This document shows positions 25,177-63,718 of a DNA stretch of 64,000 nucleotides, one piece after another. Within the stretch, counting starts at the first letter, position 1. Every line of letters starts with the position of its first letter. The notes under the pieces are model-generated. The model was not told the origin of the DNA. It saw nothing but the letters and a program-made list of their open reading frames with translations, and did no database searches. The position numbers and the translations under genes were made by a program. Source of the stretch: Nocardioides sp. S5 (GTDB lineage: Bacteria; Actinomycetota; Actinomycetes; Propionibacteriales; Nocardioidaceae); the NCBI RefSeq assembly GCF_017310035.1, contig NZ_CP022296.1:3844001-3908000 (forward strand), in the 5' to 3' direction.

Positions 25177-25190
25177 CACCGAATTGGGGA
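25177..25190. promoter_or_regulatory. Candidate operator dyad upstream of luxR-type gene
   Basis: CACCGAATTGGGGA matches the locus-wide dyad (consensus about CCCCAATTTGGGG) and is centred about 83 bases upstream of ATG 25101. Confidence 0.5.
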
Positions 25191-25332
25191 CGTGGAGCGC
25201 CTGCCTCGACGGTCCGCGGGCCACGACGACTTGCCTCAATTCTTGTCGCGGGCTAGCGCCCTGCTGGGAGGACAGTGGGACAGGACTTGACCAAGACTGC
25301 AGGAGCCCTGAACCAGGCGGACCAGACCGCCG

Positions 25333-25350
25333 TTGCCCCATTTGAGGTAC
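25333..25350. promoter_or_regulatory. Candidate operator dyad upstream of kinase operon
   Basis: TTGCCCCATTTGAGGTAC is an imperfect dyad of the locus-wide type, centred about 164 bases upstream of the histidine kinase start. The 404-base region 25102-25505 between the divergent regulators holds this and the 25177 site and no gene. Confidence 0.55.
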
Positions 25351-25505
25351 GCGCCACACACTCGCTGGATCGCCCCGGGAGAAGGTGGTTTCACTGATCC
25401 CGGGCACCTGCTCAGCGGGTGTTCCTGGTCCGGCAGCACGGGAGAGCCGTCGGACATGCACCACAGGGAGCTCGGGGAAACGCTTCACGCACAGGGGGGA
25501 TGGCC

Positions 25506-26474
25506 ATGCACAGGCCGTTCAGGGAGAACGTACGTCACAGGGTCGGGATGCAGGTCGCCACGGCGGCCTCGTTCGCGGTCCTCATCTGGCTCGGCACACG
25601 AGACGCCCACGAGTGGTACGTCTGGCCGGTCGTCCGGACGCTGTCGTCGCTCGGCGACGGCGTCGTCAGCGTGGCCTTCATCATCGGCGCCATCTGCGCC
25701 GCCGTGGTGACCTGGCGACGCCATGCGGGTCTCCAGCGCGACGCGGGTGTCGGCGACCAGCTCGAGGCTCGCATGGCGGCCGAGATCGACCTCGCCGTGC
25801 AGGCCAGCAGCCGCGACCAGAGCGAGCGGCTGCACGAGCTGCGCAGCACGGTGGCCGGCCTGGTCAACGGTTCCGCGCTGCTCGACAACGCCGACATCCC
25901 CGACGAGGCGCGCCGCCACCTCTGCGGGTCGGTGCACCGCGAGCTCCTGCGCATGCAGCGCCTGCTCGCGGGTGAGCACGGCGCCACCACCGACCTCGAC
26001 CTCGACGAGACGCTGCGCCTGATCCTGGACCTCCAGCGGCTGAAGGGCCGCCACGTCGAGCTCCACACCAGCGGCGGCACCGTGCGGGCGCGCTACGACT
26101 CCCTCGCTGAGGTGGTCAACATCCTCATGGACAACGCCGCCACCCACGGCGGCTGCGACACCAGCCTGGTCGAGGTGGTGCGTCGCGACGAGGAGACGGT
26201 GGACATCACGGTCTCGGACAACGGGCGCGGCATCCCCGAGGACCAGCGCGAGCGGATCTTCGACTGGGGCAACCGCGGCACGGACTCCCCCGGCCAGGGG
26301 ATCGGGCTGCACGTCGCCCAGCGCCTCATGGCCGAGGACGGCGGCACGCTGCGCCTCGCCGAGGCCCGGGGCCCGGGGTCGGCTTTCGTCATCTCACTGC
26401 CCTCGGCACGCCGCTCACCCGAGAATCACGTCCCCCGGGAGGACTTCCATGGCGCCTGGCGCATCTCGGGCTGA
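25506..26474 (+). CDS. Sensor histidine kinase
   Basis: About 322 residues. Two hydrophobic segments near the N-terminus (about residues 14-30 and 45-65) with almost no external loop suggest an intramembrane-sensing or membrane-anchored kinase. The phosphoacceptor region is SERLHELRSTVAGLVNGS (His in HELR, about residue 115). ATPase motifs are complete: N box DNAATHGG, G1 DNGRGIP, and G2 GQGIGLHVAQ. ATG 25506 is preferred because AGGGGGG lies six bases before it. The gene overlaps the response regulator start by 26 bases, so the pair is co-expressed. Confidence 0.9.
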   Translation: MHRPFRENVRHRVGMQVATAASFAVLIWLGTRDAHEWYVWPVVRTLSSLGDGVVSVAFIIGAICAAVVTWRRHAGLQRDAGVGDQLEARMAAEIDLAVQASSRDQSERLHELRSTVAGLVNGSALLDNADIPDEARRHLCGSVHRELLRMQRLLAGEHGATTDLDLDETLRLILDLQRLKGRHVELHTSGGTVRARYDSLAEVVNILMDNAATHGGCDTSLVEVVRRDEETVDITVSDNGRGIPEDQRERIFDWGNRGTDSPGQGIGLHVAQRLMAEDGGTLRLAEARGPGSAFVISLPSARRSPENHVPREDFHGAWRISG

Positions 26475-27135
26475 GCACCGCGTCCTGATCCTCGACGACC
26501 ACGTGCTCTTCGCGGAGGCGCTCGAGCTCGCGCTGTCGCTGGAGCAGTACGACGTACGCCGCCTCGAGCTGCCCGAGGAGGGTGGGTCCATGGCGACCTT
26601 GCGGTCGATGGCGCTGCGCGCCAACCCCCGCACCGTGATCCTCGACCTCGACCTCGGCCGCTTCGGCGACGGCGTCAACCTCGTGGCCCCCCTGGCCCGG
26701 GCGCACGTCAACGTCGTCGTGGTCACGGCGTCGCAGGACATCGGCCGATGGGGCGAGTGCATGCGGCTGGGGGCGCGCAAGGTGCTCACCAAGAGCGGGG
26801 CGCTCCAGCAAGCCCTCTCGACCGTGCGCCGGCTGCACCAGGGCCTGCCCGTGGTGACGCGGGAGGAGCTGGAGTCGCTCCTGGACGCGTGGTCGCAGCA
26901 GAGCCGTGCCGACGAGGACATCCGCCGGCGGCTAGACCGGCTCACCCCGCGCGAGCGCCAGGTGCTCGGCGCGCTCATCGAGGGGCGCACCGTGCGCGCC
27001 ATCTCCCAGGACAGCGTCGTCTCCGAGGCGACGGTGCGCACGCAGGTGAAGTCGATCCTCAACAAGCTCGAGGTGTCGTCGCAGCTGGCGGCGGTCGGGA
27101 TGGCCAACCAGATCCGGTGGAGGCAGGGCGCGTGA
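26449..27135 (+). CDS. LuxR/NarL-family response regulator
   Basis: A 228-residue regulator. The receiver is intact: RVLILDDHVLFAEAL (acidic pair), phosphoacceptor Asp in VILDLDLGRFGDG (about residue 63), Thr in VVTASQ and Lys in KVLTKSG. The C-terminal HTH (about residues 165-225) contains LTPRERQVLGALIEGRTVRA and VSEATVRTQVKSILNKLEV. ATG 26449 follows GGGAGGA. It is the cognate partner of the overlapping kinase gene. Together with the divergent LuxR-type protein it is a candidate binder of the dyads found across the locus. Confidence 0.92.
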   Translation: MAPGASRAEHRVLILDDHVLFAEALELALSLEQYDVRRLELPEEGGSMATLRSMALRANPRTVILDLDLGRFGDGVNLVAPLARAHVNVVVVTASQDIGRWGECMRLGARKVLTKSGALQQALSTVRRLHQGLPVVTREELESLLDAWSQQSRADEDIRRRLDRLTPRERQVLGALIEGRTVRAISQDSVVSEATVRTQVKSILNKLEVSSQLAAVGMANQIRWRQGA

Positions 27136-28886: not shown

Positions 28887-29310
28887 CGGCGCGGCACCGG
28901 GGCCTCGTCCGGACCTCGTGACGTACTGCGGCGGCCGAGGAGGGGGAGCCTCGACCGCCGCCGCCGGTGCGCTTCGTCGTCCCTGGCGAGGTGTGGGGCC
29001 ACTCGCCATCAACTCGGTCACACAGACCATCTGCTGGGAGAATCAGCGTCGCGAACCAGCGTGGTGCACCTCTTCGAGGGTAGGGCCCCGGACGGGGTCG
29101 GGCCAATCCCACGTACTGGGTAACTCCCCCGTGTCCGTAGCCGCACGCGTGTCCGCAGCCGCCCGCGTGTCCCCAGCCGCACCCGAGATCGCCCCGTGCA
29201 GGCCTTTCGTTGATTTGCGGCATGAGCCGAAGGTGCCATCTCCCTAGGCTCGCAAGCACTGTCAGCACAGGGTGACCACCGGGGGGCACCTCGCAAGAGG
29301 TTGGGAAGCG
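28887..29310. other. 424-base intergenic region with three 18-base repeats
   Basis: No gene is supported. At 29131-29184 three imperfect 18-base repeats stand head to tail: GTGTCCGTAGCCGCACGC, GTGTCCGCAGCCGCCCGC, GTGTCCCCAGCCGCACCC. Just before them, CCCACGTACTGGGTAACTC (29109-29127) is a weak relative of the locus dyad and shares CTGGGTAACTC with the site at 38.98 kb. The region probably holds the promoter of the sugar-transferase operon. Confidence 0.6.
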
Positions 29311-30837: not shown

Positions 30838-30891
30838 CTCGCCCGCCATCCGCTGCACCGCGTGCAGCCCGGCTGCAGGGGGCGCTCAACC

Positions 30892-33943: not shown

Positions 33944-33960
33944 CCGACCTGCCTGCCTCT

Positions 33961-33979
33961 CCACCAATTGGGGGAAATG
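33961..33979. promoter_or_regulatory. Candidate operator dyad upstream of 2OG oxygenase gene
   Basis: CCACCAATTGGGGGAAATG, locus-type dyad, centred about 128 bases before ATG 34096. Confidence 0.55.
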
Positions 33980-35013: not shown

Positions 35014-36276
35014 TCAGCTGATGCTGGGTGCGTACGACGCCACGCTGCCGCGGATCGCTGCGAGCACCTGGTCCCCGGCGCCATCCCAGCTGCGCGACGT
35101 CACGCTGGCCGCCGCGGCCTGCGCCCGCGAAGCCCGCTCCTGGTCGGAGGCCGACACGAGGTCACCGAGGGCGGCGGCTAGGCCGAAGGGCGAGGCGTAA
35201 CGCACGTGGTCGTTGTCCAGCACCAGACGGCTGTGCTCGCCCTCGTTGACGACCGGGATGCACCCGGCAGCCAGCATCTCGTGCGGCACGAGGGAGACGT
35301 TGGTCGCCGAGAGCGTCAGTCCTGCGATGCAGGTGTTGTAGAGCTCGCCGAGGTCCGCAGGCGTCAGCAGTCCGTGGTGCGTGGCCTCGAAGCCCGGGTC
35401 GGGGACGGCCTCCCCGTAGAGATGGATGTCGACGTCCGGGTGCTGCTCTGCGAAGACCCCCAGGGCCACGAGCGCGAGCTCGTGCGCACGCCGAGGCGTG
35501 GATGGTCGGCAGTAGTAGGCGACGCCGGTCCGTCTGGCCGCCGCGCCCGGCGACTGGTCGATCCGGTAGTGGGTGAGGTCGCAGCCGAAGTCGAAGTGGT
35601 CGGCGATCATGCCGTGCTCGCGTGCCAGACGCTCGGAGAGCCACCTGCCAGCGGTGATCGCGCGGAAGCCGAAGTCGTAGGTCGCCTCGGCCAGCATTGC
35701 CAGCGAGCCCGCCGGGTAGAACATCGGCTCGTAGTCCTGGACGAAGTACATGCGCGCCCCCAGGGCCGGTGAGGCAAGGACCGGGTAGGCGCTCTCCCAG
35801 CACGTGGCCATCACGACGTGGGCGTCCTCGATGCCGTCGGCCAGGTCGCGGACCTCGGCCCGCACGCCGGGCCACCAGGTGACAATCGTGCGACGGTGTG
35901 TCTCCAGGTCCCACCCGTGGTGGTCCATGAGATACATCGTGCACTCGACGCCGTTGCGCTCGAGGTGCTCGATCATCCGGTAGATCGTCGTCTGCCCGCC
36001 CGAACCCTTGCTGGGCGGGACGTCCACCCAGGCGACGCGGAGCGGCTCCCCCGGCGTCACGTGGGCCGGCCCCGGAAGCGGGAGCCCGCTGGAAAGCACC
36101 CGGGAGGCGCCCACCAGGTCCGCCTGCTCTACGGGCAGGGGCGTGCCCGTAGACGGGGCCACGAGCTGGGCGCCGCGGGAACGGACGCGCCGCACCACGC
36201 CGGCGGTTCCCTCACGCTCGATCAAGCGCCGGGTCTGCCGGACGCGTTCGACCGCGGTGACGTCGTGCCGCTTCAT
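35014..36276 (-). CDS. Glycosyltransferase, WsaF-like (GT4-type)
   Basis: A 420-residue GT-B fold enzyme. The N-terminal domain has WVDVPPSKGSGGQTTIYRM (nucleotide-sugar transferase of the rhamnan WsaF type), and the segment YFVQDYEPMFYPAGS is highly typical of that group. The C-terminal nucleotide-binding half has VSLVPHEMLAAGCIPVVNEG, the E-rich motif of GT4 enzymes. WsaF is a beta-1,2-rhamnosyltransferase, so a deoxysugar donor is possible but not shown. It is cytosolic, perhaps membrane-associated. ATG 36276 lies about 75 bases from a locus-type dyad and it is monocistronic. Confidence 0.86.
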   Translation of the reverse strand: MKRHDVTAVERVRQTRRLIEREGTAGVVRRVRSRGAQLVAPSTGTPLPVEQADLVGASRVLSSGLPLPGPAHVTPGEPLRVAWVDVPPSKGSGGQTTIYRMIEHLERNGVECTMYLMDHHGWDLETHRRTIVTWWPGVRAEVRDLADGIEDAHVVMATCWESAYPVLASPALGARMYFVQDYEPMFYPAGSLAMLAEATYDFGFRAITAGRWLSERLAREHGMIADHFDFGCDLTHYRIDQSPGAAARRTGVAYYCRPSTPRRAHELALVALGVFAEQHPDVDIHLYGEAVPDPGFEATHHGLLTPADLGELYNTCIAGLTLSATNVSLVPHEMLAAGCIPVVNEGEHSRLVLDNDHVRYASPFGLAAALGDLVSASDQERASRAQAAAASVTSRSWDGAGDQVLAAIRGSVASYAPSIS

Positions 36277-36342
36277 GTAGGACCCCCCATCACAGGGGAC
36301 GTTAACGAGCCTCGGCGCTCACCGCGGTCGACGACGCTGGCC

Positions 36343-36360
36343 TTACCCAATTGGGGCTAG
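36343..36360. promoter_or_regulatory. Candidate operator dyad upstream of WsaF-like gene
   Basis: TTACCCAATTGGGGCTAG, one of the best dyads of the set, centred about 75 bases before ATG 36276. Confidence 0.6.
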
Positions 36361-38970: not shown

Positions 38971-38990
38971 GTTCCCCCAATCTGGGTAAC
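38971..38990. promoter_or_regulatory. Candidate operator dyad upstream of beta-helix operon
   Basis: GTTCCCCCAATCTGGGTAAC, locus-type dyad, centred about 107 bases before GTG 38874 in the gap to the methyltransferase gene. Confidence 0.55.
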
Positions 38991-40057: not shown

Positions 40058-41278
40058 TCACACGAGGACCTCGGTCGGCGCGGGGTGACCCAGGAACGCC
40101 GTCGGGCTGGCGCTGAGACCGTAGGCGCCGGCCTGGAACACGACGACCAGGTCGCCCACCTCCACGCGCGGGAGCCGCAGCCGGTCGCCGAGCAGGTCCA
40201 GGGGCGTGCAGAGGCAGCCCACCACCGTCACCTCCTCGGCGTCCCGGCCCACGACGTCGGCCGCGAGCGGGTAGTTGCGACGGATCACCTGCCCGAAGTT
40301 CCCGGAGGCGGCGAGCTGGTGGTGCATGCCGCCGTCAACGACGGCGTACGTCGTGCCTCGCGACACCTTCCGGTCGACGACCCGCGTGACGTAGAGGCCC
40401 GACTCGCCCACGAGGTAGCGACCCAGCTCCACCCCGATCCGGACGTCGCCGAGGACGGGGCGTAGCCGCTCGGCGCACAGACGTTCGAGGTTCGCGCCGA
40501 CCGCGGCCAGGTCGAGGGGCTCGTCCTTCTCGAAGTAGGGGATGCCGAAGCCGCCGCCGAGGTTGACGTAGCGGATCGGCTCGGGCGAACGCTTGGCCAG
40601 GTCCAGCACGAGGTCCACCGTGCGCTTCTGCGCCTCGACCAGGATCGGGGCGTGCAGGTTCTGCGAGCCTGCAAAGACGTGGAACCCCTCGAGGGGCAGC
40701 TCCAGACCGGCCATCAGGTCCATCAGGTCCGGGACCGCTTCGGCGTCCACGCCGAACTGCTGCGGGCCACCACCCATGCGCATGCCCGACCCCTTCACCG
40801 CGAAGTCCGGGTTGACCCGTACTGCGGCACGCGGCGTGAGTCCGAGCTCGCGCCCGGCGTCGACGAGCCGACGTGCCTCGCCCTCCGACTCCACCTCGAC
40901 GAGTGCGCCCGCGGCGACCGCGCGCCTCAACTCGTCGGTCGTCTTGCCCGGTCCGGCGAAGGTGATCCGCTCGGCCGAGGTGCCGGTGTCCAAGGCGACC
41001 GCCATCTCACCGGCGGAGGCGACGTCGAGCGTGTCGACCAGGCCGGCCAGGTGCTGGACCACGGCCGGCATGGGGTTCGCCTTGACGGCGTAGCCGAGGT
41101 CGAGGTCGTCCGGCAGCGCCTCTCGGACCTCGGCAACACGCCGGGAGATGGCTGCGCGGTCGTAGGCGAAGAACGGCGTCGAGCCGACGCGCGCTGCCAG
41201 CCGCTCGAGGGCGACCCCGCCGACCTCCAACCGGTCCCCCGAGCGCATGAAGACGCTGGCGTGCTCCTCCGCGATCAC
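40058..41278 (-). CDS. PLP-dependent decarboxylase (DapDC/ornithine decarboxylase type)
   Basis: A 406-residue fold-III (alanine-racemase-like) decarboxylase. The PLP lysine is in LGYAVKANPMP (about residue 64); YVNLGGGFGIPYF is the phosphate-binding glycine motif, and GCLCTPLDLL contains the active-site Cys of the dimer partner. The set AMP-ligase, this decarboxylase and ACP matches the gene trio associated with exosortase-A exopolysaccharide loci. It is likely to act on an amino acid tied to the ACP pathway; lysA-type biosynthesis is less likely given the place. ATG 41278 overlaps the ligase stop by four bases. Confidence 0.88.
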   Translation of the reverse strand: MIAEEHASVFMRSGDRLEVGGVALERLAARVGSTPFFAYDRAAISRRVAEVREALPDDLDLGYAVKANPMPAVVQHLAGLVDTLDVASAGEMAVALDTGTSAERITFAGPGKTTDELRRAVAAGALVEVESEGEARRLVDAGRELGLTPRAAVRVNPDFAVKGSGMRMGGGPQQFGVDAEAVPDLMDLMAGLELPLEGFHVFAGSQNLHAPILVEAQKRTVDLVLDLAKRSPEPIRYVNLGGGFGIPYFEKDEPLDLAAVGANLERLCAERLRPVLGDVRIGVELGRYLVGESGLYVTRVVDRKVSRGTTYAVVDGGMHHQLAASGNFGQVIRRNYPLAADVVGRDAEEVTVVGCLCTPLDLLGDRLRLPRVEVGDLVVVFQAGAYGLSASPTAFLGHPAPTEVLV

Positions 41279-42867
41279 GACGCCACGCCCTCCCGCTCCG
41301 TGCGGTCCATCGACATCCCGGCCACCTCCCGCGCGAGCCCCACGCGGTCGAACTTGCCGTTCGGCGAGCGCGGCAGCTCCGCGCGCACGACGACCTCGGC
41401 AGGGACCATGAAGAGGGGCAGGTCGCGGCGCAGCGCCTTGAGCAGGACGGCCGTGTCGACCCCGTCCCCGGCGACTGCGAGGACGATCCGGTGGCCGAGT
41501 CCCTCCTCCGGCACGCCGAGCGCGACGGCGTCTCGGACCAACCCTGTCTGGTAGGCCGCCTCCTCGATCTCGGTGGGGCTCACCCGGTAGCCCGAGGTCT
41601 TGATCATCTCGTCGCTCCGGCCGACGAAGTAGAGGAACCCCTCGTCGTCGGCGACGACCGTGTCACCGGACCACACGGCCAGCTCGGGCGTCTGCCAGTC
41701 GGCCGCGCCGGGCAGGGGACGGAATCGTTGCGCGGTGCGCTCGGGGTCGTTCCAGTAGCCGAGGGCGACCAGAGGTCCGCGGTGGACCAGCTCGCCCTCC
41801 TCGCCGGGCCCGCACTCGGTGCCGTCCGGGCGCAGCACGAGGATCTCGGCGTTGGGGATGGCCTTGCCGATGGAGTCGGGGCGTCGGTCCACCTCGGCTG
41901 GGTCGAGGTAGGTCGAGCGGAAGGCCTCGGTGAGCCCGTACATGAGGAAGGGTGCGGCCGAAGGGAAGACGCGTCGCAAGCGCCCCAGCGTGGCGGCCGG
42001 CATCTTGCCGCCGGTGTTGGCGAAGTAGCGCAACGATCGGGTCGCCTCCGCGGGCCACTGCTGGTCGACGAGCTGGATCCACAGGGGTGGCACGCAGGTC
42101 AGTCCGGTGACCCGGTGACGCGCGCAAAGGGCGACGAGTTCGCGGGCGACCAGGTAGTTCGCCAGGACGACGTGGGCGCCCACGGCCATCGCGGTGGTGA
42201 CCTGGCTGAGACCTGCGTCGAAGCTCAGCGGCAGCGCTGCCAGCACCACGTCGTCGGCGGTGTTGCCGAGATAGGTGCTGACACTCTCCGCCCCGACCAG
42301 CAGGTTGCGGTGGCTCAGCACGACGCCCTTGGGCGACCCCGTGCTGCCCGACGTGTAGAGGATGGCCGCCAGGTCACCGTCCGGGGGTCGGGGTGTGGGG
42401 GCATGGAGCGGGTCGTGGCCCGACAGCGTGGCGTAGCTGTGCACGGCCACCGGACCGGGGGCGGCCGGCACGTCGTCGTCGACCAGGACGACGTGGCGGA
42501 GCCCGGTCCCCACGAGCGAGTCGGCCAGGGTCGCCCAGCGGCGCCCCGTGGTTACCAGGACTGCAGCACCGCTGTCCGCGACCACGTGCGTGACCTGGCG
42601 AGGCTTGAAGACCGGGTTGACCGGCACGAAGACCGCGTCCGCCACGGACGCGGCGAGCAGGCTGCACACCGTCTCGATGCGCTTGTCCAGGAACACCGCG
42701 ACCCGGTCACCGGGACTGACGCCGAGCCGGACCAGGCCCGCGGCGACGGCCCGTACGTCGCGCCACGCGTGCTCGTAGGTGAGTGTCGTCTCCCCAGCCG
42801 TCAGGGCCGGACGGCTGGCGTGGAGCGTGACCGCTTGCTCGAGGAGGTGGTGCACGCGCGTCCTCAT
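41275..42867 (-). CDS. AMP-forming acyl-CoA/ACP ligase
   Basis: A 530-residue ANL-superfamily adenylating enzyme. Core motifs are present: the AMP-binding loop ILYTSGSTGSPKGVV (about residues 170-184), MYGLTEAF (about residue 310), the hinge YFVGRSDEMIKTSGYRVS (about residue 425) and the C-terminal Lys in SPNGKFDR (about residue 510). It activates a carboxylic or amino acid as adenylate and loads it on CoA or, more probably, the ACP three genes on. ATG 42867 has GAGGG eight bases before it. Equivalent ligases are known from exosortase-A-linked exopolysaccharide loci. Confidence 0.92.
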   Translation of the reverse strand: MRTRVHHLLEQAVTLHASRPALTAGETTLTYEHAWRDVRAVAAGLVRLGVSPGDRVAVFLDKRIETVCSLLAASVADAVFVPVNPVFKPRQVTHVVADSGAAVLVTTGRRWATLADSLVGTGLRHVVLVDDDVPAAPGPVAVHSYATLSGHDPLHAPTPRPPDGDLAAILYTSGSTGSPKGVVLSHRNLLVGAESVSTYLGNTADDVVLAALPLSFDAGLSQVTTAMAVGAHVVLANYLVARELVALCARHRVTGLTCVPPLWIQLVDQQWPAEATRSLRYFANTGGKMPAATLGRLRRVFPSAAPFLMYGLTEAFRSTYLDPAEVDRRPDSIGKAIPNAEILVLRPDGTECGPGEEGELVHRGPLVALGYWNDPERTAQRFRPLPGAADWQTPELAVWSGDTVVADDEGFLYFVGRSDEMIKTSGYRVSPTEIEEAAYQTGLVRDAVALGVPEEGLGHRIVLAVAGDGVDTAVLLKALRRDLPLFMVPAEVVVRAELPRSPNGKFDRVGLAREVAGMSMDRTEREGVAS

Positions 42868-42907: not shown

Positions 42908-43765
42908 TCACCAGGCCACGCACGTGAGCTCGCTGTAGAGGTAGTCGATGTCATCGGCCACGAGGTCGTCGCTGCGGAACATCTTGGGGCGGGGACGAGC
43001 GACGAGCCGCGCGCCCGGTGGTGCCCAACCGGTCACACGCTCCTCCACCAGCGTGGCCACGGCCCCGTGCGCGAGCAGGTGGCCGGACAGCCGGGCCCAG
43101 GCCCGCGGCAGCAGCTCCGGGCGGGACACGTGCAGAAGCGAGGCGAAGACCGGCAGGCCCTTGCGGCGGTCCCTCCGGTAGAGGACGTACAGCGGGACGC
43201 CGTCGACGTCGAGCACGACGTGGCGGGAAGCGCCCGCCTCGCGGTGGTCGTCGAAGATCCGGCGCTGCCTGCCGGAGAGGCGGTCCGCGATCCGGTCCGG
43301 ATCGGTGATCGCCCGCACTCCGCGTGGCGGCAGCGGCACGTTCAGAGCCAGCGTGGTCGACGTGTCGAGGTGCTGGAACTTTAGCCGCTCGTTGAGCGCC
43401 ACCACGTTGCCGCTCGGCGAGAGGTCCGTGAAGGTGTAGCCGCGCTGGCCCAGGAGCGCGCGCAGCAACCTCAGGCCGTGCGACCGGTGCTCGTCGTCAA
43501 CGCACCACGCCGCGAGGTTGCACACCATCTCGGGCCGACCGGCCACGGTGCGGTCCGCGTAGAACGCCAGCGCCGCACCCACGACCGCCCCACCGTCACG
43601 CAGGTGGAAACCGTGGTTGGGCGCGTCGCACGACCACGACGGCACCATCGACCGTGCCCACTGCTCGGCAGTGAGCCGGCTGTTCAGCGCGCGGTGCAGG
43701 TACGCCGCCACGTCCGGCACGTCTGCCGCGGTGGTAGGCGCAACCACGACGGTCGAGTCCCCCAT
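42908..43765 (-). CDS. GNAT-family N-acetyltransferase-like protein
   Basis: A 285-residue protein with one clear GNAT domain in its first half: TTAADVPDVAAYLHRAL, AAWCVDDEHRSHGLRLLRAL (the acyl-CoA-binding region, about residues 100-120) and FTDLSPSGNVVALNERLKF. The C-terminal half (from about residue 155) may be a second, divergent GNAT unit. Two ATG starts lie four codons apart; 43765 is used. Acceptor unknown. It is the first gene of the run that holds the ligase, decarboxylase and ACP, and its promoter region, with a locus-type dyad, is shared with the divergent deacetylase gene. Confidence 0.78.
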   Translation of the reverse strand: MGDSTVVVAPTTAADVPDVAAYLHRALNSRLTAEQWARSMVPSWSCDAPNHGFHLRDGGAVVGAALAFYADRTVAGRPEMVCNLAAWCVDDEHRSHGLRLLRALLGQRGYTFTDLSPSGNVVALNERLKFQHLDTSTTLALNVPLPPRGVRAITDPDRIADRLSGRQRRIFDDHREAGASRHVVLDVDGVPLYVLYRRDRRKGLPVFASLLHVSRPELLPRAWARLSGHLLAHGAVATLVEERVTGWAPPGARLVARPRPKMFRSDDLVADDIDYLYSELTCVAW

Positions 43766-43815
43766 GACGTCGAGCATCCTGCGAGACCGTTGCCCACCGC
43801 CGCACTGGGCCCGGG

Positions 43816-43835
43816 TTACCCCCATTTGGGGTATC
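43816..43835. promoter_or_regulatory. Candidate operator dyad between divergent GNAT and deacetylase genes
   Basis: TTACCCCCATTTGGGGTATC is the most symmetric dyad of the set. It is centred about 60 bases from each of the two divergent starts (43765 on minus, 43886 on plus). Confidence 0.65.
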
Positions 43836-43885
43836 GCCCTCCACGGCCGCCGCGCTCGACGGGCACCGGTCCTAGCGTCTGCGGC

Positions 43886-44560
43886 ATGACTGCGGGGGGA
43901 CGGACGCGCATCAACGTGTGCTTCCACGGCATCGGCACGCCCGCCCGCTCGCTCGAGCCGGGTGAGGCGCCCTACTGGGTGGCCCACGACGTCTTCCTCG
44001 AGATCCTCGACGTGCTAGCCGAGGAGCCACAGGTGCACATCAGCTTCGACGACGGCAACGCCTCCGACGTGCAGCTCGGCCTTCCTGCCCTCGTCGAGCG
44101 AGACCTGCGGGCCACGTTCTTCGTGCTCGCCGGACGACTCGATCGGCCGGGCAGCCTGTCGGACGCGGACGTGAAGTCGCTCGCAACCGCGGGCATGGCC
44201 ATCGGCACGCACGGCATGGACCACCGACCGTGGCGGGGCCTGGACCCCGGTGGCCGGCGGCGAGAGCTCGAGCACGCCAGGAGGGTCCTCGCCGACGTGG
44301 TGGGCAGACCGGTGGACGAAGCCGCGCTCCCGCTCGGTCGCTATGACCGAGAGCTGCTCGACCGCCTGCGGCGGCTGCGCTACACCGCCGTCCACACGAG
44401 CGACCGCCGCTGGGCCCAGGAGGGGGACTGGCTCCAGCCACGGTTCTCCGTGCGCGACGGCGACACCGCGGACAGCGTCCGGTCCGGCATGCTCCGCCGC
44501 CAGCACCTCGGGCGCCGCGCGGAGCGTTCCCTGGTGGGCACGGTCAAGCGCTGGCGCTGA
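43886..44560 (+). CDS. Polysaccharide deacetylase family protein (NodB-type)
   Basis: A 224-residue carbohydrate esterase 4-like protein. Motif 1 is HISFDDGNASD (catalytic base and metal Asp, about residue 52) and motif 2 is GTHGMDHRPW (HxxxH metal ligands, about residue 110). Motif 3 may be ALPLGRYDREL. There is no signal peptide, so the protein is cytosolic or leaves by another route; this is unusual for a polymer deacetylase and may mean it works on lipid-linked intermediates. ATG 43886. It overlaps the convergent glycosyltransferase gene by 17 bases at the 3' end. Confidence 0.85.
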   Translation: MTAGGRTRINVCFHGIGTPARSLEPGEAPYWVAHDVFLEILDVLAEEPQVHISFDDGNASDVQLGLPALVERDLRATFFVLAGRLDRPGSLSDADVKSLATAGMAIGTHGMDHRPWRGLDPGGRRRELEHARRVLADVVGRPVDEAALPLGRYDRELLDRLRRLRYTAVHTSDRRWAQEGDWLQPRFSVRDGDTADSVRSGMLRRQHLGRRAERSLVGTVKRWR

Positions 44561-50428: not shown

Positions 50429-50447
50429 TATCCCCAAATTGGGTGGG
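50429..50447. promoter_or_regulatory. Candidate operator dyad upstream of polymer-assembly operon
   Basis: TATCCCCAAATTGGGTGGG, locus-type dyad, centred about 122 bases before ATG 50316. It lies two bases from the end of the large secreted-protein gene, in the short gap between the two genes. Confidence 0.6.
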
Positions 50448-50450: not shown

Positions 50451-53400
50451 TCAGCCGCCAGCCCGGAACAGCACGTCCACGAAGTAGTTCGTGGAGTTCC
50501 ACGAGCCGGTCGGGAACCCGCCTCCCGCGCCGTAGCGGTAGAGGCCGTTGTTGCCCGCCGGGGCCGTGAGCGGCCCCACCGTCCGCAGGCTCGCGAAGTA
50601 GGCGCCCGTCGCCGAGAACCGTCCGGTGGGCGAGTAGTAGGAAACGACGTAGGTCTGGCCCGCGGCGACGGGGACGGGGCTGGAGAAGTCGGCTGCCTGC
50701 CAACCGTCGGTGGTCTCGTCGGTGAACGTGACCGTCCCCACCCGGGTGCCGTCACTGCTCCACAGCGACCCCGTGTGGGTGCCCGTGTTGCCGGTGCCCT
50801 TCCAGAAGCGCACGCCGGTCACCACCCCGGCGGTCGAGGGGGTGAAGGCCATGCCGAGCTCGATCGGGTCGGAGTCTTGGGCGTGGATCGCGGGCGTCTC
50901 GCCGTCGAGCAACCGCGAGATCGGCGCTGTGACGGCCGCCGTCGTGAAGGACCACGACTGCGAGGACAGGGCGATCCCGTCGGTCGACCTCACCTCGGTC
51001 ACCTCGACGGTGTAGGTGGTGCTGGCCGCCAGCGCGGCGGACGGCCTGAACGTCAGCTGCTTCCCGTCGGACGACAGCGCCGCCGATCCCAGCACCGTGG
51101 TGGTGCCTCGACGCATCGTCATCGACCAGCCCGAGGCCTGGATGGCGTCGGAGAAGGTCATCCTCGGCGTCACGTCGGTCGCTACGCCGGTGGCGTCCGC
51201 CCCCGGCGTACGCGACGCGACCGTCACGGCGCTCGGGTCCTTCTCGAAGACGACGTCGACCCAGTAGTTCGTCGCGTTCCAGGAGTACGTCGGGAAGCCT
51301 CCGCCGCCGTAGAGGTACCTGCCGTTCGTGCCGGCGGGGGCAGTCAGGTCACCGCTGGTGAAGGCGTTGGCGAAGAACCCGCCCGAAGTCGCGTAGTGGC
51401 CGTTGGGGGCGTGGTAGGACACGACGTACGTCGTGCCGGCGGCGAGCTGGACCGGTGATGCCAGCATCGCGGTCTGCCATCCGGAGGCGGTCTCGCCTAC
51501 GAAGGTCACCCCGGCCAGCTTGGTGCCGGTCGCGGACCACAGCGACCCCTTGTGCGTCCCCGTGTTGCCGGGACCCTTGAAGAAGCGGATCCCAGTGACC
51601 TGCCCGGCCTTCGAGGGCACGAACGACACCCCGACCTCCACCGGCGAGCTGTCGTCGGCCGCCGCCTGCGCGGGCTGCTGGCTGCTGAAGAGCGTCTGCT
51701 CGGCTGGCGGCTCGCCGGAGCGGGTGGTGAAGCTCCATGCCTGGTTCGCCAGGGTGATGCCCTCGGTCGAGCGGAGCCCGGTGACGTTGACGGTGACGAC
51801 GGCGCCGTCCGGGAGCAGGCCGGAAGGGGTGAACGTCAGCCGCGTGCCGTCGTCGCTCAACGCGGTGCTGCCGGGCACGGTCGTCCCGCTCGACGTCACC
51901 GACATGCCCCAGCCGGAGGCCAGCGGCGTGCTGACCTCGAGGACGACCGAACTGGCACGACGCACCATCGTTGCTCCGGAAGCGGGTGACTGCCCGACCA
52001 CGGTCAGCGGGGCCGGTGCCCGCTCGAAGACGACGTCGACTAGGTAGCTGGTCGACGAGCTGGACGAGGGGTAGCCGGATCCGTAGGTGTAGGCGCCCGA
52101 GCTGCTCTCCACCACCAGCGGCGCGCGTGACATCCCGCTGAAGCCACCAGGGGTCGCGGAGTAGCGTCCGCCCGGCGCGCGGTAGGAGGCGACGTACTCC
52201 GTGTTGCGGGTGATGGGCACGGGCTGGTCGAAGACCAGGGTCTGCCAGCCTGCCGTGGTCTCGCCGCTGAAGGTGCCGGTGGCGAGCTGGGTGCCGTTCG
52301 CAGACCACAGCGTGCCGGTGTGGGTGCCGGTGTTGGAAGGGCCCTTGTAGAACCGGATCGCGGTCACGGTTCCGTCGACAGTCGCACTGAACCGGGTGCC
52401 GAGCGTCACCGGTGACCGGTCGGCGTCCTCGAGGAGGGTGGGCTGCGTGGCGTCGTCGTAGAGCGTGCACGGGCAGACGCCGGGCGCCGCTGCGGGCTTC
52501 GCGGTCCGGAATGACCAGGTCTTGCCCGTGCTCACCTGCTGCCCGAGGCTGTCGGTGGCCGAGATCGTCGCCGTGTGGTCGACGAACCCCGCGAGGGGTG
52601 CGGTGGGCGTGAAGGTCACTGTGCGGGTGGTCGCGTCGTACGACGTGGAGCCCGCGACGGTCTGGCCGAGGGCGTCCTTGAGCACCAGCGACGCCGAGCC
52701 GGCCGTGACCGGCTTGGAGAAGGTCGCCTTGACGGCGGTACTGCTGGGCACGCTGCTCGACCCGGCGAGGGGCCACTGGCTCGTCGCCACCAGCGGCGAG
52801 GTGTCCACGGTCGTGAAGAGCACGTCCACGTAGTAGTTGCTGCTCTCGTGACTCCCTGCGGGGAACCGTCCGGGCGACCCGAACACGCCGGCCGGCGCGG
52901 CCCCGAACCCCCCGGCTACCGTGAGAGGGGGAGCAGATCGGGGTGCGCTCCAGAACGCGTCGGACTCGAGCGAGTAGCGGCCCTGGGGCGCGGTGTAGGA
53001 CGAGACGTAGGTCTGGTCGGCGCTCACCGGGACGGCGGACGTGAAGCTCAGCGTCTGCCATCCGGTCGCGCTCTCGTCGGTGAAGGTGCCGGTGGTCAAA
53101 AGCTCACCGCTCGAGCTCCACAACGAGCCCTGGTGCGTGCCACCGTTGCCGGTACCCTTGTAGAAGCGGACGCCGGAGATGTAGCCGTTGGCGGTCGGGG
53201 AGAACCGCAGGCCGAGCTCGACGGCACCCCCGTCATCGGTGGCCGGGACCGGAGGGACCTCCGCGCCGAAGATCGAGCACGGGCACGTGACCGTGACCGT
53301 GCGGGTGGCCACCGACCCGATATTGGCGCTGTCGTCGGTGGCGCGCACGCGCAGGTCCACGCCGCCCATGCCCTTCTGCGCGTATGTGTAGGTCCACGAG

Positions 53401-55232
53401 GTCGTTCCCGTCGCGCGGTGCCACGTGTCACCGCCGTTGGTCGACACCTCGACACCCGCGACACGGCCGCCGCCGGTGTCCGTCGCCGTGCCGGTGACGG
53501 TGCGCTGCGACCCGTTGGCGATCGTTGCGGCGGCGCTGGGTGACGCGATGGTCACCGAGGGCCCGGTGGTGTCCGCCGACTTGGTGGCCGCGACCAGACC
53601 CGCCATCAAGGTGCTCGGCTGGGCGTCCATGTCGGCGAGGAGGTTGACCTGCGCCTGCTGCATCCGGATGTCGGCAGGTTCGGCGACGTACGGCGTGTCG
53701 TGCTCCGCGTCCAGGCCCCACGTCCATTGCACCGACCCGGCGCTGAACACCAGGGCACCGCTCGGTGCCCGGTAGAGGGTGACGTTGTGCGTCGTCGTGC
53801 CGGGCGTGACCTTGTTGCCGTAGTCCCGCAGGTACTCCGGGGTCGGGCCCACCGTGGTCGACAGGCGCACGAGGCCCGCCGGTCTGTGCCCATTGTCGAT
53901 GTCCTCGTTGGACTCGTATCCCACGGTGTGCGGTGCCAGCTCCTGCTTCTGGCCTGCGGACAGGCTCGCCAGCGAGGTGTGGCGCCACAGGCGGTACTTG
54001 CCCTCCTCGGCGCTCACCGTGACGGGGAGGTCGCTGTAGTTGGCCTGGTACATCGTTCCGGTCAGCCCGTTCTCCGGGCGGCCACCACCCTGGGAAGGTG
54101 GCGCGAAGCGCGGGTCGCGCCACGTGCCGGTCCACTCCGAGGTCGGGTCGGACTTCCTCCGGTCCCAGGTCTCCTTGTAGCTGACCAGGGTCCGGTACGC
54201 AGTGCGGCTGGCGTCGAGCGACGGCTCGTACCGCGTGCGCCAGTAGACCTCGTTGCCACTGAGGAATTGCAGGTTCACCCCGGCGTCACGGGCAGCCTCG
54301 ACGTTGGCCCGCTGAGCGCCGCTCCAGTACTCGTCGTGGCCCACCGAGAGGAAGACCTTGTGATTCTTGATCAGGTGTCCGCGGCGGTCTGTGTCGACGC
54401 CCGCCAGGTAGGAGACGTCGTAGCCGTTGCGCTCGAGGAAGCGCACCATCGGGTACTCGTTGGAGAAGAAGAAGTCGCGCCCCCCGACGCCGCCGCGCGT
54501 GAGCATCGGGCGGTTGTAGGACACCTTGTACGCGCGACCGTTCGCGCCGCCCCAGTAGAAGTTCGAGCCGCCGTAGGTGTTGTAGGCGACCCAGGTGGGG
54601 TCAGACGTCTGGAACACCACGTCGGAGGTGCTCGCGTCGTCACGCACGACGAAGGTGATGTGGCTGGCGTCGCCGTTGCTGCGCTTGAGGTGGGCGAGGT
54701 AGACGCCCGACACGGCGGTTGACGGCACGTTCCAGGAGGCCGAGACGGCCCAGTTGCCGCAGTCGAGCGTCTCGGTCGTCACGTCGTTAATGCAGTTGGG
54801 CTGGTTCTGCGGGAGCGAGGCGGAGGGGGCGATCGAGGTGATCTTGCGAGCGCCGTCGCCCTGGTAGTAGCCGATGCGGTAGATGTCGATCGTGTACGCC
54901 GACGCGTCGGTGTCGATCTTGAAGTCGACCCGCTGGCCGACGTTGACCGAGATATCGGTGGAGAAGCCCTGGATGGACTCGTCGCCGGCACCCCAGATCG
55001 CGTCCCACACGGCGGGGTCCGTGCCGGGCTTGGAGTTCTCGCACGCGATCTTGTTGCCGCCGGGGGCGCAGGGATCGGCTGCGGTGGCGGAGGTGGGACC
55101 GCCCAGCGCCACGGGACCCACCAGCGCGTTGAGTGCTGCGACGAGCGCGAGCACCACGAGCTTCAACATCCACGCACGCCCGAGACCCCGCTTGCGATCG
55201 CCCGCAACCACCATGTCTTCCCAACCCTTCAT
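50451..55232 (-). CDS. Large secreted multidomain protein (dimethylformamidase-beta-like, Ig-like and DUF4082-like domains)
   Basis: A 1593-residue exported protein. After a long signal/anchor (VLALVAALNALVGPVALGGP) the first 500 residues match the N,N-dimethylformamidase beta-subunit-like family (GYYQGDGARK, DPTWVAYNTYGGSNFYWGG, VGHDEYWSGAQRANVEAARD, FLSGNEVYWRTR). An Ig-like module follows (about residues 550-645), then four DUF4082-like beta-sandwiches beginning near 655, 920, 1180 and 1435, each ending NYxVDVxF, alternating with Ig-like modules typical of SbsA. ATG 55232 follows GGGAGG. No sortase or PEP-CTERM-type tail is seen. Probably a wall- or polymer-associated hydrolase or adhesin. 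Confidence 0.85.
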   Translation of the reverse strand: MKGWEDMVVAGDRKRGLGRAWMLKLVVLALVAALNALVGPVALGGPTSATAADPCAPGGNKIACENSKPGTDPAVWDAIWGAGDESIQGFSTDISVNVGQRVDFKIDTDASAYTIDIYRIGYYQGDGARKITSIAPSASLPQNQPNCINDVTTETLDCGNWAVSASWNVPSTAVSGVYLAHLKRSNGDASHITFVVRDDASTSDVVFQTSDPTWVAYNTYGGSNFYWGGANGRAYKVSYNRPMLTRGGVGGRDFFFSNEYPMVRFLERNGYDVSYLAGVDTDRRGHLIKNHKVFLSVGHDEYWSGAQRANVEAARDAGVNLQFLSGNEVYWRTRYEPSLDASRTAYRTLVSYKETWDRRKSDPTSEWTGTWRDPRFAPPSQGGGRPENGLTGTMYQANYSDLPVTVSAEEGKYRLWRHTSLASLSAGQKQELAPHTVGYESNEDIDNGHRPAGLVRLSTTVGPTPEYLRDYGNKVTPGTTTHNVTLYRAPSGALVFSAGSVQWTWGLDAEHDTPYVAEPADIRMQQAQVNLLADMDAQPSTLMAGLVAATKSADTTGPSVTIASPSAAATIANGSQRTVTGTATDTGGGRVAGVEVSTNGGDTWHRATGTTSWTYTYAQKGMGGVDLRVRATDDSANIGSVATRTVTVTCPCSIFGAEVPPVPATDDGGAVELGLRFSPTANGYISGVRFYKGTGNGGTHQGSLWSSSGELLTTGTFTDESATGWQTLSFTSAVPVSADQTYVSSYTAPQGRYSLESDAFWSAPRSAPPLTVAGGFGAAPAGVFGSPGRFPAGSHESSNYYVDVLFTTVDTSPLVATSQWPLAGSSSVPSSTAVKATFSKPVTAGSASLVLKDALGQTVAGSTSYDATTRTVTFTPTAPLAGFVDHTATISATDSLGQQVSTGKTWSFRTAKPAAAPGVCPCTLYDDATQPTLLEDADRSPVTLGTRFSATVDGTVTAIRFYKGPSNTGTHTGTLWSANGTQLATGTFSGETTAGWQTLVFDQPVPITRNTEYVASYRAPGGRYSATPGGFSGMSRAPLVVESSSGAYTYGSGYPSSSSSTSYLVDVVFERAPAPLTVVGQSPASGATMVRRASSVVLEVSTPLASGWGMSVTSSGTTVPGSTALSDDGTRLTFTPSGLLPDGAVVTVNVTGLRSTEGITLANQAWSFTTRSGEPPAEQTLFSSQQPAQAAADDSSPVEVGVSFVPSKAGQVTGIRFFKGPGNTGTHKGSLWSATGTKLAGVTFVGETASGWQTAMLASPVQLAAGTTYVVSYHAPNGHYATSGGFFANAFTSGDLTAPAGTNGRYLYGGGGFPTYSWNATNYWVDVVFEKDPSAVTVASRTPGADATGVATDVTPRMTFSDAIQASGWSMTMRRGTTTVLGSAALSSDGKQLTFRPSAALAASTTYTVEVTEVRSTDGIALSSQSWSFTTAAVTAPISRLLDGETPAIHAQDSDPIELGMAFTPSTAGVVTGVRFWKGTGNTGTHTGSLWSSDGTRVGTVTFTDETTDGWQAADFSSPVPVAAGQTYVVSYYSPTGRFSATGAYFASLRTVGPLTAPAGNNGLYRYGAGGGFPTGSWNSTNYFVDVLFRAGG

Positions 55233-55300: not shown

Positions 55301-55320
55301 GATATCCCCAATTTGAGTGC
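55301..55320. promoter_or_regulatory. Candidate operator dyad upstream of large secreted protein
   Basis: GATATCCCCAATTTGAGTGC, locus-type dyad, centred about 79 bases before ATG 55232, in the gap to the Alg14/Alg13-like gene. Confidence 0.55.
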
Positions 55321-61357: not shown

Positions 61358-61983
61358 CGAGCTTCCTCCAGTCGTCCTTCGAGCTCTGTGTAGACCTCGC
61401 CCGAGGCCGGGCAGATCCATCGGTCGTGCGTGTCGGACACGAGCGGGACACCGCTGCGCCCGACCCAGCCGACGCGACGTGCCGGAGCGCCGACGACGAG
61501 TGCGTGGTCGGGGACGTCGCGCGTCACCACGGCTCCTGCACCCACGGATGCCCAGCGGCCGATGATGACCGGCGCGACGCAGACCGCGCGGGCGCCGATC
61601 GAGGCTCCCTCGCGGACGGTGACCCCGACGGGTTCCCAGTCCTGCGCTCCCTTGAGGCGACCTTCCGGTGTGACCGCACGCGGATACGTGTCGTTCGTGA
61701 GCACTACAGCCGGACCGACGAAGACGCCGTCCTCCAGGACGGCGGGCTCGTAGATCAGTGCTTGGTTCTGCACCTTGCACCGCTCGCCGAGCCGAGCCCC
61801 CGGCCCGATGTAGACGTTGCGGCCCACGATGGTGTCGGCACCGACGTGGGCTCCGGCACGGACGACTGACTGGTCCCAGACCTGGGCGCCGGGACCCACC
61901 TCGGCGTCGTCCTCGATCGTGGCGGTTGCGGCAACGACGGTGCCGGTCCCGCGGGTGGCCCTCGAGCTGTTCAGCGTGGTCAT
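61354..61983 (-). CDS. Hexapeptide-repeat acetyltransferase (WbpD-like)
   Basis: A 209-residue left-handed beta-helix enzyme. Hexapeptide units include TATIEDDAEVGPGAQVWDQ, NVYIGPGARLGERCKVQNQA, and VFVGPAVVLTNDTYPRA, a block seen in WbpD and related UDP-3-amino-sugar N-acetyltransferases. The segment after residue 170 (GRSGVPLVSDTHDRWICPAS) contains Cys and may be a small extra zinc- or tail-domain. Together with the WbpB-like and WbpE-like genes it suggests a 2,3-diacetamido uronic acid-type product. ATG 61983 overlaps the glycosyltransferase stop by four bases. Confidence 0.87.
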   Translation of the reverse strand: MTTLNSSRATRGTGTVVAATATIEDDAEVGPGAQVWDQSVVRAGAHVGADTIVGRNVYIGPGARLGERCKVQNQALIYEPAVLEDGVFVGPAVVLTNDTYPRAVTPEGRLKGAQDWEPVGVTVREGASIGARAVCVAPVIIGRWASVGAGAVVTRDVPDHALVVGAPARRVGWVGRSGVPLVSDTHDRWICPASGEVYTELEGRLEEAR

Positions 61984-62822: not shown

Positions 62823-62912
62823 CCCCACTCCCCCAAGTCGTGTACCGGTCGGACGACCGACACGATCAGATCTTGGGGATCGCGGATGGCTGCGCGGACG
62901 CCCGTCGGACCC

Positions 62913-62929
62913 TTTCGCCAATATTGGTG
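62913..62929. promoter_or_regulatory. Candidate operator dyad upstream of the eight-gene sugar operon
   Basis: TTCGCCAATATTGGTGA, a symmetric dyad related to the locus motif, centred about 100 bases before ATG 62822. It has C/G in place of the full CCCC/GGGG arms and is a weaker match. Confidence 0.45.
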
Positions 62930-62954
62930 AGCAGGGTCGAGCCGGGTCCGGATG

Positions 62955-63647
62955 TCATCGCGGACGAGCCATCGAGAACGTGATCTCGTGGGACCTCAGG
63001 TTGCGCAGTGACAGCAGGACCGCGTCGAGTGCCACGACCGACCACTCGTCGTCGACAGCCGTCCCGTCGGCGGTGGTGCTGAGCACCTGCAGCAGGTCGA
63101 GCGGCTGCCTTCGCAGCTCGGCGTGCAGGGTTCCCTCCATGACGCGGCGCAGGAAGTCGTGCTGTGCGGCGGGCCCGGATCCGTAGACGTAGGAGGGGTC
63201 GACGGCGTTGACGTCGGCCAGCTGGACGAACGTGGTCCAGTCGATGGCGATCAGGTGATCGATGCGACGGCCGGACCACGCCTCGACGGCCGCGACGCTC
63301 GAGCTCGGCGCAGGCTGGTTGACGTGAGGACGGACCCGGCTACTGGCGGGCAACGTCGCAACCTCGGCCGACATGCCGTCCGGAGGGATCTCGACGAGCA
63401 TCACGGCCTCGACGGACTGCTCGTCCACCAGCCATGGCACGTCGTTTCCGGTGCCCCCGGGTCGGGTCGCGACCATCAGGATCGTCTGGCCTTCGTCGGG
63501 CGGTGGTCGGTCCGACAGGCCGGCGAAGGCACCCTCGATCCGGTCCAACCGGCTCACCAGCGCGACGTTGGTCGCCAGCACCACCAGCACGCCCACCAGT
63601 CCGAGCATGGACAGCACCTTGGCGCACCGGCGTACGACTCTCGCCAT
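62955..63647 (-). CDS. Short LytR-CpsA-Psr-like membrane protein, catalytic residues missing
   Basis: A 230-residue protein with one N-terminal membrane segment (VLSMLGLVGVLVVLATNVAL). The rest follows the LCP pattern in order: RLDRIEGAFAGL, GQTILMVATRPGG where LLVGSDxR stands in true LCP enzymes, VEAVMLVEIPPDGMSAEVAT, then AVEAWSGRRIDHLIAIDWTT and LADVNAVD. The Asp/Arg residues that bind the pyrophosphate and magnesium (GSDxR, RD in SIPRD) are not present, and the domain is short. So it is probably a non-catalytic relative that may bind the lipid-linked polymer. Start is ATG 63647, with a dyad-like site about 64 bases upstream. Confidence 0.65.
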   Translation of the reverse strand: MARVVRRCAKVLSMLGLVGVLVVLATNVALVSRLDRIEGAFAGLSDRPPPDEGQTILMVATRPGGTGNDVPWLVDEQSVEAVMLVEIPPDGMSAEVATLPASSRVRPHVNQPAPSSSVAAVEAWSGRRIDHLIAIDWTTFVQLADVNAVDPSYVYGSGPAAQHDFLRRVMEGTLHAELRRQPLDLLQVLSTTADGTAVDDEWSVVALDAVLLSLRNLRSHEITFSMARPR

Positions 63648-63702
63648 CCGCCTCCCCCTCGTGCCGATGCCCAGACGCTAGGTCAGCCCGCTCAGGCGCA
63701 CA

Positions 63703-63718
63703 TGCCCTGAATCGGGGA
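63703..63718. promoter_or_regulatory. Weak candidate operator dyad upstream of LCP-like gene
   Basis: TGCCCTGAATCGGGGA resembles the locus dyad but has a longer, altered centre. It lies about 64 bases before ATG 63647 and 10 bases before the pth stop. Confidence 0.35.

Follow-up and report, generated by a model that had tools for sequence, protein, structure and literature searches.

A conserved 16-bp dyad in the exopolysaccharide locus of Nocardioides sp. S5 and the response regulator that probably binds it

Are the exopolysaccharide (EPS) genes of Nocardioides sp. S5, which lie between IMPase (23530-24300) and pth (from 63728) in what appear from strand and spacing to be about 12 transcription units, controlled by one regulator acting at one operator? 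The window analyzed here, 64,000 bp in length, is C1:3844001-3908000 of the single-contig 4.75-Mb genome (G+C content, 71.6%), and coordinates refer to it. A preliminary description of this sequence had pointed to a repeated dyad ahead of nearly every promoter of the locus and had proposed a locus-wide operator, the probable target of one of two LuxR-type proteins encoded at its left end. Computation established the motif, how specific and conserved it is, that it co-occurs with a NarL/FixJ-type response regulator (RR) and that it keeps preferred distances to -10 boxes; the dyad is real, strongly conserved and specific, and is unusual in having two positions and two flavors. It is likely, as judged from sequence, that the dyads are operators of the RR encoded at 26449-27135, which would activate all EPS promoters when phosphorylated.

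A dyad specific to the EPS locus

A 16-bp dyad with the genus consensus TCCCCAAATTTGGGGA is present in 11 to 12 copies between 25.1 and 63.7 kb, all intergenic according to our own gene calls, and its places as first described were confirmed by pattern count, by de novo expectation maximization (EM) and by a matrix trained on 80 other loci. No dyad of at least 12.5 bits with the 80-locus matrix lies left of 24 kb, in agreement with the preliminary description. Using CCCCAATTTGGGG with up to three mismatches, 25 matches were found on the two strands of the window, versus 7.8 ± 3.7 expected, and none of 100 shuffles reached 25. When the 16 intergenic stretches to the right of 23.5 kb were given to EM, it returned TTCCCCCAATTTGGGTAA with a log-likelihood of 81.1, compared with 64.4 for the best of 20 dinucleotide shuffles; the 13 left-hand stretches gave an unrelated motif at 48.6, a value that is not strictly comparable, as they contain less sequence. 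A matrix built from the window sites found 10 sites of at least 14 bits in the window, none of them genic and none to the left of 25 kb. As this matrix was made from the same sites, evidence from relatives weighs more.

The relatives used were the best 80 of 341 loci encoding RR relatives (1.52 Mb, 87.6% coding by our own calls), all labeled Nocardioides except for one Marmoricola metagenome-assembled genome, with some near-identical to one another. In these loci the window-built matrix gave 119 intergenic and no genic matches at 14 bits or more (65 of 80 loci) and 197 intergenic and 5 genic matches at 12 bits or more (76 of 80 loci), whereas eight column-permuted control matrices gave 0 to 6 intergenic and 0 to 12 genic matches at the higher threshold. 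The refined 16-bp matrix was trained on these 80 loci from a first matrix seeded with window sites; it found the window sites again, which were absent from its final training set, and at 13 bits or more it matched only 3 genic places in the 80 loci versus 275 intergenic ones. The same motif, TCCCCAAtTTGgGGTAT, was recovered by EM from 43 distant Nocardioides loci (L104 to L152, 49 loci, of which 6 were dropped as redundant), with the best 8 of 80 starts in agreement. The input for this run was the noncoding sequence up to 3.2 kb upstream of the RR gene, and the window was used solely to train the gene caller. The information content is nearly limited to 16 to 17 bp and is dyad symmetric (T-M-CCC-M-A / WW / T-K-GGG-K-A), which is the 16-bp 7-2-7 layout of NarL-type operators.

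Simple IUPAC patterns with three mismatches could not tell signal from background genome-wide (97 forward versus 114 control matches; 49 and 32 versus 42 and 46), leading to the use of a tighter palindromic pattern, TNCCCMAWWTKGGGNA, with two mismatches. This pattern, which misses the sites at 29107, 55305 and 63703, was picked by how often it matched in the 80 loci and in the window, before its own genome-wide counts were made. With one mismatch it occurs at four places in the genome, all within the EPS locus; with up to two, it occurs eight times in the approximately 39-kb locus and 15 times in the other 4.71 Mb, a number close to the 17 genome-wide matches for the reversed control. Four of the 15 outside places were read. 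Of four genes scanned next to candidate sites outside the locus, three have Pfam matches unrelated to EPS (acetyltransferase, FAD oxidoreductase and helicase) and one has no match. In the 6 of 14 relatives where IMPase and pth both delimit the locus, 34 sites of at least 13 bits (one of them genic) lie between the two genes (225 kb) and none in the other 135 kb, although four of the six are partly among the 80 training loci; of all 14 relatives, eight (G005, G006, G007, G010, G017, G021, G026 and G030) are also among the 80. Both density and conservation thus bear out the proposal of a locus-wide operator.

The motif also follows the RR across the genus. Among 37 genus genomes, the 28 with an RR ortholog (E ≤ 1e-40; own genome included) hold 578 motif matches versus 322 for the reversed control (552 versus 305 without the own genome), whereas the nine lacking an ortholog hold 77 versus 76. 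The excess differs between the two groups in a Mann-Whitney test that ignores kinship (p = 4e-4; 5e-4 without the own genome; 6e-4 when G023 is also removed), and mean control counts are themselves higher in the RR-bearing group (11.5 versus 8.4; p, 0.06). One genome, G023, stands far above the rest of the genus, with 46 matches versus 6 for the control; its regulon may be wider.

Two preferred distances to -10 boxes

The position of the dyad relative to the sigma70-type -10 box TANNNT was examined in 541 segments flanking intergenic sites of at least 13 bits, in both directions, with segments merged only if identical over 40 bases, so that orthologous promoters weigh in. Boxes were found 25 times at offsets 22 to 23 and 61 times at offsets 38 to 41, making 86 at six offsets versus 48 at the other 48 offsets. 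After near-duplicates were removed at 72% identity, the first class comprises 25 promoters from 10 gene clusters, whose dyads lie at -50 to -35 (center, -42.5), and the second 52 promoters from 14 gene clusters, whose dyads lie at about -67 to -52 (center, about -59.5). No -35-like hexamer was found in the 52 nonredundant promoters (14 gene clusters) of the -59.5 class. The way the cases were selected accounts for the T, A and T of the box but not for the CC before it, the A at +1 in the -42.5 class or the absence of a -35-like hexamer in the -59.5 class. In the window itself, 7 of the 13 gene-ward orientations have N-A-NNN-T at offset 39, compared with a mean of 0.22 at other offsets. A first histogram, restricted to unambiguous orientations, had suggested 22 to 23 as a single distance, but many of its cases were one orthologous promoter, and the second distance became clear only once divergent sites were included. 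The preferred distances, together with the missing -35-like box, suggest an activator-like placement of the dyad.

The two dyad positions favor different half-sites. TGC is the promoter-proximal half-site in 16 of 23 distinct -42.5 sites versus 1 of 49 distinct -59.5 sites and, when the sugar-transferase family is set aside, in 4 of 9 versus 1 of 49 (Fisher p, 0.0014), albeit with small numbers. A heterodimer code read from half-site pairing alone was discarded, since the departures (TGC/TGC, 19 versus 9.4 expected; TAC/TCA, 14 versus 7.7; TCA/TGC, 2 versus 5.5) are all open to orthology. At six candidate sites outside the locus (4623310, 3508364, 3014052, 1145755, 1701832 and 2140228) no strict TANNNT was found at the standard offsets, which is weak evidence, as most window sites also lack it.

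The response regulator, its paralog and rival explanations

Of the two LuxR-type proteins, the preliminary description had left open which one binds the dyad; its proposal is supported indirectly, and the sequences point to the RR as the better candidate. The phosphorylation pocket of the RR is intact (D17, D66, D68, T93 and K115 in 20 of 20 aligned orthologs). Its helix ATVRTQVK is invariant in the same 20 orthologs and is mostly 80 to 95% conserved in 78 helix-turn-helix (HTH) domains from the 80 loci. The other protein (24310-25101) is paralogous to the RR over its full length, but its phosphorylation pocket is degenerate. The two families align over 217 columns (hhalign E, 6e-39), and the model of the paralog (pLDDT, 87.5) has a receiver and an HTH fold, with Foldseek matches to the NarL/FixJ-type proteins VraR, VpsT, RcsB and LiaR; whole-chain TM-scores are mostly 0.3 to 0.5, making its domain orientation uncertain. 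Among 41 aligned paralogs, the first acidic position is Ser in 31 and the second holds an acid in 19, and Lys is not among the commonest residues in the columns read at the lysine position.

A divergent LuxR-type gene was found within 4 kb upstream of the RR gene in 64 of the 80 loci, and a dyad of at least 13 bits within 3 kb upstream of it in 77, namely, in all 64 with the paralog and in 13 of the 16 without one, as judged with a hidden Markov model (HMM) on called genes near the RR. The dyad is missing in L109, L120 and L125, the last of which has a paralog-type gene just beyond 4 kb. Among the 13 loci with a dyad and no divergent paralog, two (L094 and L121) have a LuxR-type gene at the opposite flank of the RR and two (L129 and L131) have another one on the same strand, while in the remaining nine (L103, L117, L130, L141, L145, L148, L150, L151 and L152) the RR is the sole LuxR-type gene in the sequence examined, which for L150 was 4 kb only. 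No GerE match was found among the ten neighboring genes scanned at paralog-less loci, although decayed paralogs are possible at L117, L131, L141 and L148, where neighbors have no Pfam match at all. Retention of the dyad where the RR is the only LuxR-type gene favors the RR as the binder.

From these observations we infer binding by the RR, activation by it and phosphorylation as the trigger. The RR would be coproduced with the histidine kinase, both being encoded at the left end of the locus; an incoming signal would act through the kinase to yield phosphorylated RR, a dimer of which would bind the 16-bp dyad. The bound RR would then recruit sigma70-type RNA polymerase, either from beside sigma (center, -42.5) or from farther upstream (center, about -59.5), to promoters with a -10 box and, in the -59.5 class, no -35-like box. 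With one dyad for each transcription unit, including the RR's own operon and the divergent atypical paralog, the locus would form a single positively autoregulated regulon almost confined to itself, in which the paralog may act as partner, decoy or modulator.

A number of observations weigh against activation by the RR. No motif excess is seen in three of the 28 RR-bearing genomes (G013, -1; G026, -6; G034, 0), four of the nine RR-less genomes show a small one (G009, +3; G019, +2; G025, +5; G031, +7), and 21 genomes of other families divide into 10 with an excess, 10 with a deficit and 1 with neither. The 48 boxes at other offsets include 13 at offset 27, 6 at offset 29 and 7 at offset 0 that are unexplained; these (from intergenic sequence of L073 to L152) may represent additional promoter classes or single orthologous promoters. 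In the window a full gene-ward TANNNT stands at a standard offset only for the sites at 29207, 36344, 43818 (+ side) and 63703; leaving aside 62829, seven other gene-ward orientations match two of the three key bases, and 38973 matches none. Conservation of the ATVRTQVK helix among the 80 loci is partly selection, as the loci were found with patterns that included it. The DNA-binding domain of the paralog is of the same type, and the paralog could share or own the dyad; loci were counted as paralog-less on the basis of an HMM search of the called genes near the RR. A fixed distance alone, moreover, does not exclude a repressor.

It is possible, though rather improbable, that the main binder is instead the atypical paralog or its obligatory heterodimer with the RR, much as BldM pairs with WhiI or RcsB with RcsA, with phosphorylation not being the trigger. 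That the paralog is a full-length relative of the RR with a degenerate pocket, adjoins the RR operon, has a dyad before its own gene and is found upstream of the RR in most of the 80 loci would fit such a role, as would the existence of two half-site flavors. This reading is opposed by the nine loci where the RR stands as the sole LuxR-type gene, with the caveats given for L150, L141 and L148, and by the HTH of the paralog, which is less conserved than that of the RR, although the loci had been chosen by their RR. Doubtful as well is a two-protein code, whereby the RR homodimer would read symmetric TGCC-type dyads at -42.5 (the sugar-transferase promoter and a few others) and the RR together with its phosphorylation-blind paralog would read TCCC- or TACC-type dyads at about -59.5; if this were true, the spelling and position of the operator would switch early steps of polymer synthesis separately from late ones.

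Repression, with a protein sitting upstream of or over the promoters and keeping the locus off until a signal arrives, seems unlikely. LuxR-type proteins are able to repress, and the dyad overlaps the -35 region in the -42.5 class, but it covers neither the -10 box nor the start in either class, its distance varies by no more than 2 bases in one class and 4 in the other, and the lack of a -35-like box in the -59.5 class fits a dependent promoter. It is highly improbable that the motif is inherited baggage, copied along with genes in orthologous promoters and without present function. The kinase promoter region does supply many of the matches in the 80 loci, but sites precede 389 genes in 64 clusters when double-counted genomes are kept and still 328 genes in 57 sequence clusters (30 with at least two members) once these and identical proteins are removed; relatives differ in which genes lie between IMPase and pth, and genic copies are nearly absent. 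Activation by the RR remains the preferred reading.

Sites and genes of the locus, and comparison with known systems

The sites and the regulatory genes are listed in Table 1. Ten site-gene pairs are separated by 40 to 135 bp, counted from the end of the site to our own called start codon; the distance is 198 bp at the kinase and 407 bp between 29107 and the sugar-transferase gene, whereas 60 to 195 bases had been described. Weak relatives of the dyad had been placed at 62913, 63703 and near 29109; all three are present, but the first, with 18.8 bits, is not weak. Near 29109 a dyad of 14.5 bits exists, but the working site of the sugar-transferase operon is probably 29207-29222, followed by a -10 box conserved in orthologous promoters, and the true start of the gene may lie well upstream of the called one. 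The 62829 site may be a chance match. Both divergent genes at the 43818 dyad (43765-43886) look leaderless, with an ATG about 7 nt past the -10 position; with this layout, the left gene probably starts at 43765 and not at the called 43777. Judged from the positions of the full -10 boxes, transcription is predicted to begin near 43885 (+), 36292 (-), 63668 (-) and 29257 (+), about 50 or 67 bases from the start of the respective dyad.

TABLE 1 Dyads, -10 boxes and regulatory genes in the window (all dyads except the weak one at 29207 are the window sites of at least 12.5 bits with the 80-locus matrix)
Feature	Position	Strand	Score (bits)	Context
Dyad TGCACCGAATTGGGGA	25175-25190		15.8	Upstream of LuxR gene; -10-like AAGGGT (2/3 key bases) at offset 39 toward LuxR
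Dyad TGCCCCATTTGAGGTA	25334-25349		19.5	Upstream of kinase-RR-AsnB operon; weak -10-like TTCACT at offset 40
Dyad TCCCACGTACTGGGTA	29107-29122		14.5	No -10 at standard offsets toward sugar-transferase gene
Weak dyad TCGTTGATTTGCGGCA	29207-29222		9.0	Then CCTAGGCT at offset 22, as in orthologous promoters
-10 box TAGGCT	29245-29250	+		Sugar-transferase operon
Dyad TCCACCAATTGGGGGA	33960-33975		19.1	Upstream of 2OG-Fe(II) oxygenase gene (34096); AAGACT (2/3) at offset 39
Dyad TACCCAATTGGGGCTA	36344-36359		15.3	Upstream of WsaF-like gene (35014-36276, -)
-10 box TAACGT	36299-36304	-		Offset 39 from 36344 dyad
Dyad TCCCCCAATCTGGGTA	38973-38988		20.3	Upstream of DUF4082 operon (38895 leftward); no -10 at standard offsets
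Dyad ACCCCCATTTGGGGTA	43818-43833		15.5	Common to divergent hyp289-ligase-decarboxylase-ACP operon (-) and polysaccharide deacetylase gene (+); at offset 39, TAGCGT on + side and GATGCT (2/3) on - side
-10 box TAGCGT	43873-43878	+		Deacetylase gene; ATG 43886 within a base of box-predicted start (leaderless)
Dyad TCCCCAAATTGGGTGG	50431-50446		15.8	Upstream of GT2-Wzx-Wzy-GT2 operon (50316 leftward); GACGAT (2/3) at offset 40
Dyad TCCCCAATTTGAGTGC	55305-55320		13.4	Upstream of large protein gene (50451-55169, -); GAAGAT (2/3) at offset 39
Dyad-like TCCCCCAAGTCGTGTA	62829-62844		12.7	6 bp before called start of GT2c
Dyad TCGCCAATATTGGTGA	62915-62930		18.8	Upstream of sugar operon (62822 leftward); CAAGAT (2/3) at offset 39
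Dyad TGCCCTGAATCGGGGA	63703-63718		13.0	Upstream of hyp220 (62955-63617, -)
-10 box TAGCGT	63675-63680	-		Offset 22 from 63703 dyad
LuxR-type protein, atypical response regulator, RR paralog	24310-25101	-		GerE match, no Response_reg match
Histidine kinase	25548-26474 (called)	+		HATPase_c; best NCBIfam name PrsK (XrtA system)
NarL/FixJ-type RR	26449-27135	+	Response_reg 44 (cutoff 30.2); GerE 46.9 (cutoff 23.5)

The LuxR-type gene at 24310-25101 is probably cotranscribed with IMPase, given their spacing, and the true start of the kinase, as its alignment suggests, is probably near 25500. The kinase (25419-26474, +) is about 180 residues shorter than that of the near relative L073 (N. furvisabuli), with the gap in the membrane sensor region, and the kinases of L074, L075, L087 and L103 are likewise short or diverged there. 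Within the locus are genes for an EPS glycosyl-phosphotransferase, Wzx, Wzy, several glycosyltransferases, DegT aminotransferases, a polysaccharide deacetylase, a DMFA2_C/DUF4082 protein of 1572 amino acids, and an acyl-CoA ligase and a decarboxylase of "exosortase A system-associated" families. The latter two (40058-42855, -) score above the cutoffs of TIGR03098 and TIGR03099, respectively, in a genome with no detected exosortase: PF09721 has no match genome-wide, with the control positive in 1 of 14 control genomes. From IMPase to pth (23530-63940) the region resembles a variable EPS island, as the mfd, IMPase and pth flanks are kept in nearer relatives while the contents differ.

NarL heptamers are paired as 7-2-7, and the dyad resembles NarL/FixJ-type operators in having two 7-bp halves around 2 bp, an outer T and A, and a C-run followed by a G-run. 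It departs from NarL operators in its inner base (A, not T), its C-rich halves (TCCCCAA, TACCCCA and TGCCNCA) and its use at one locus; the Escherichia coli NarL heptamer is TACYYMT (PMC4886647). The nearest actinobacterial parallel, by analogy, is BldM and BldM-WhiI of Streptomyces. The BldM homodimer site is a 16-bp palindrome, TCACcCgnncGgGTGA, and the BldM-WhiI heterodimer site is asymmetric, TGnnCCGnnCGGGTGA (PMC4125116). Both systems have a 16-bp site and a paralogous pair of actinobacterial LuxR-type response regulators, one with a degenerate pocket; unlike the orphans BldM and WhiI, which serve development genes, the RR described here is kinase linked, has an intact pocket and would control a regulon almost confined to one EPS locus.

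The RcsB/RcsA operator differs from the dyad. That pair likewise joins a canonical response regulator to an atypical partner among LuxR-type regulators of surface polysaccharide, but the N-terminal domain of RcsA, the partner of RcsB, is not a typical receiver (PMC4125116), while the paralog found here has a predicted receiver fold. XrtA/PEP-CTERM EPS loci with PrsK/PrsR share the TIGR03098 ligase and the TIGR03099 decarboxylase, and PrsK is the best named model for the kinase; its score, however, is far below the cutoff of that model, TIGR02916 (53 bits; cutoff, 300), and the pair does not classify as PrsK/PrsR, the RR being NarL type and not sigma54 type. A PEP-CTERM gene of the XrtA system is RpoN dependent, probably with PrsK-PrsR (PMC9850573), in contrast to the NarL-type RR and sigma70-type -10 boxes here, in a genome with no detected exosortase. 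No earlier description of the dyad or of EPS control in Nocardioides was found in the literature searched, which comprised titles and the beginnings of abstracts, with most subscription journals outside its scope; of five core strings of the dyad, one, CCCAAATTTGGG, had a match there, in a Salmonella SsrB paper.

Beyond what had been described, the analysis adds the activator geometry, the two promoter classes and the genus-wide distribution. It yields a defined operator, a regulator pair, predicted transcription starts and two promoter geometries for EPS control in Nocardioides. As the dyad keeps its place while the surrounding genes differ between species, it can serve as a marker for the boundaries and units of variable polysaccharide loci, and the genus offers a natural series for how one operator serves two promoter positions.

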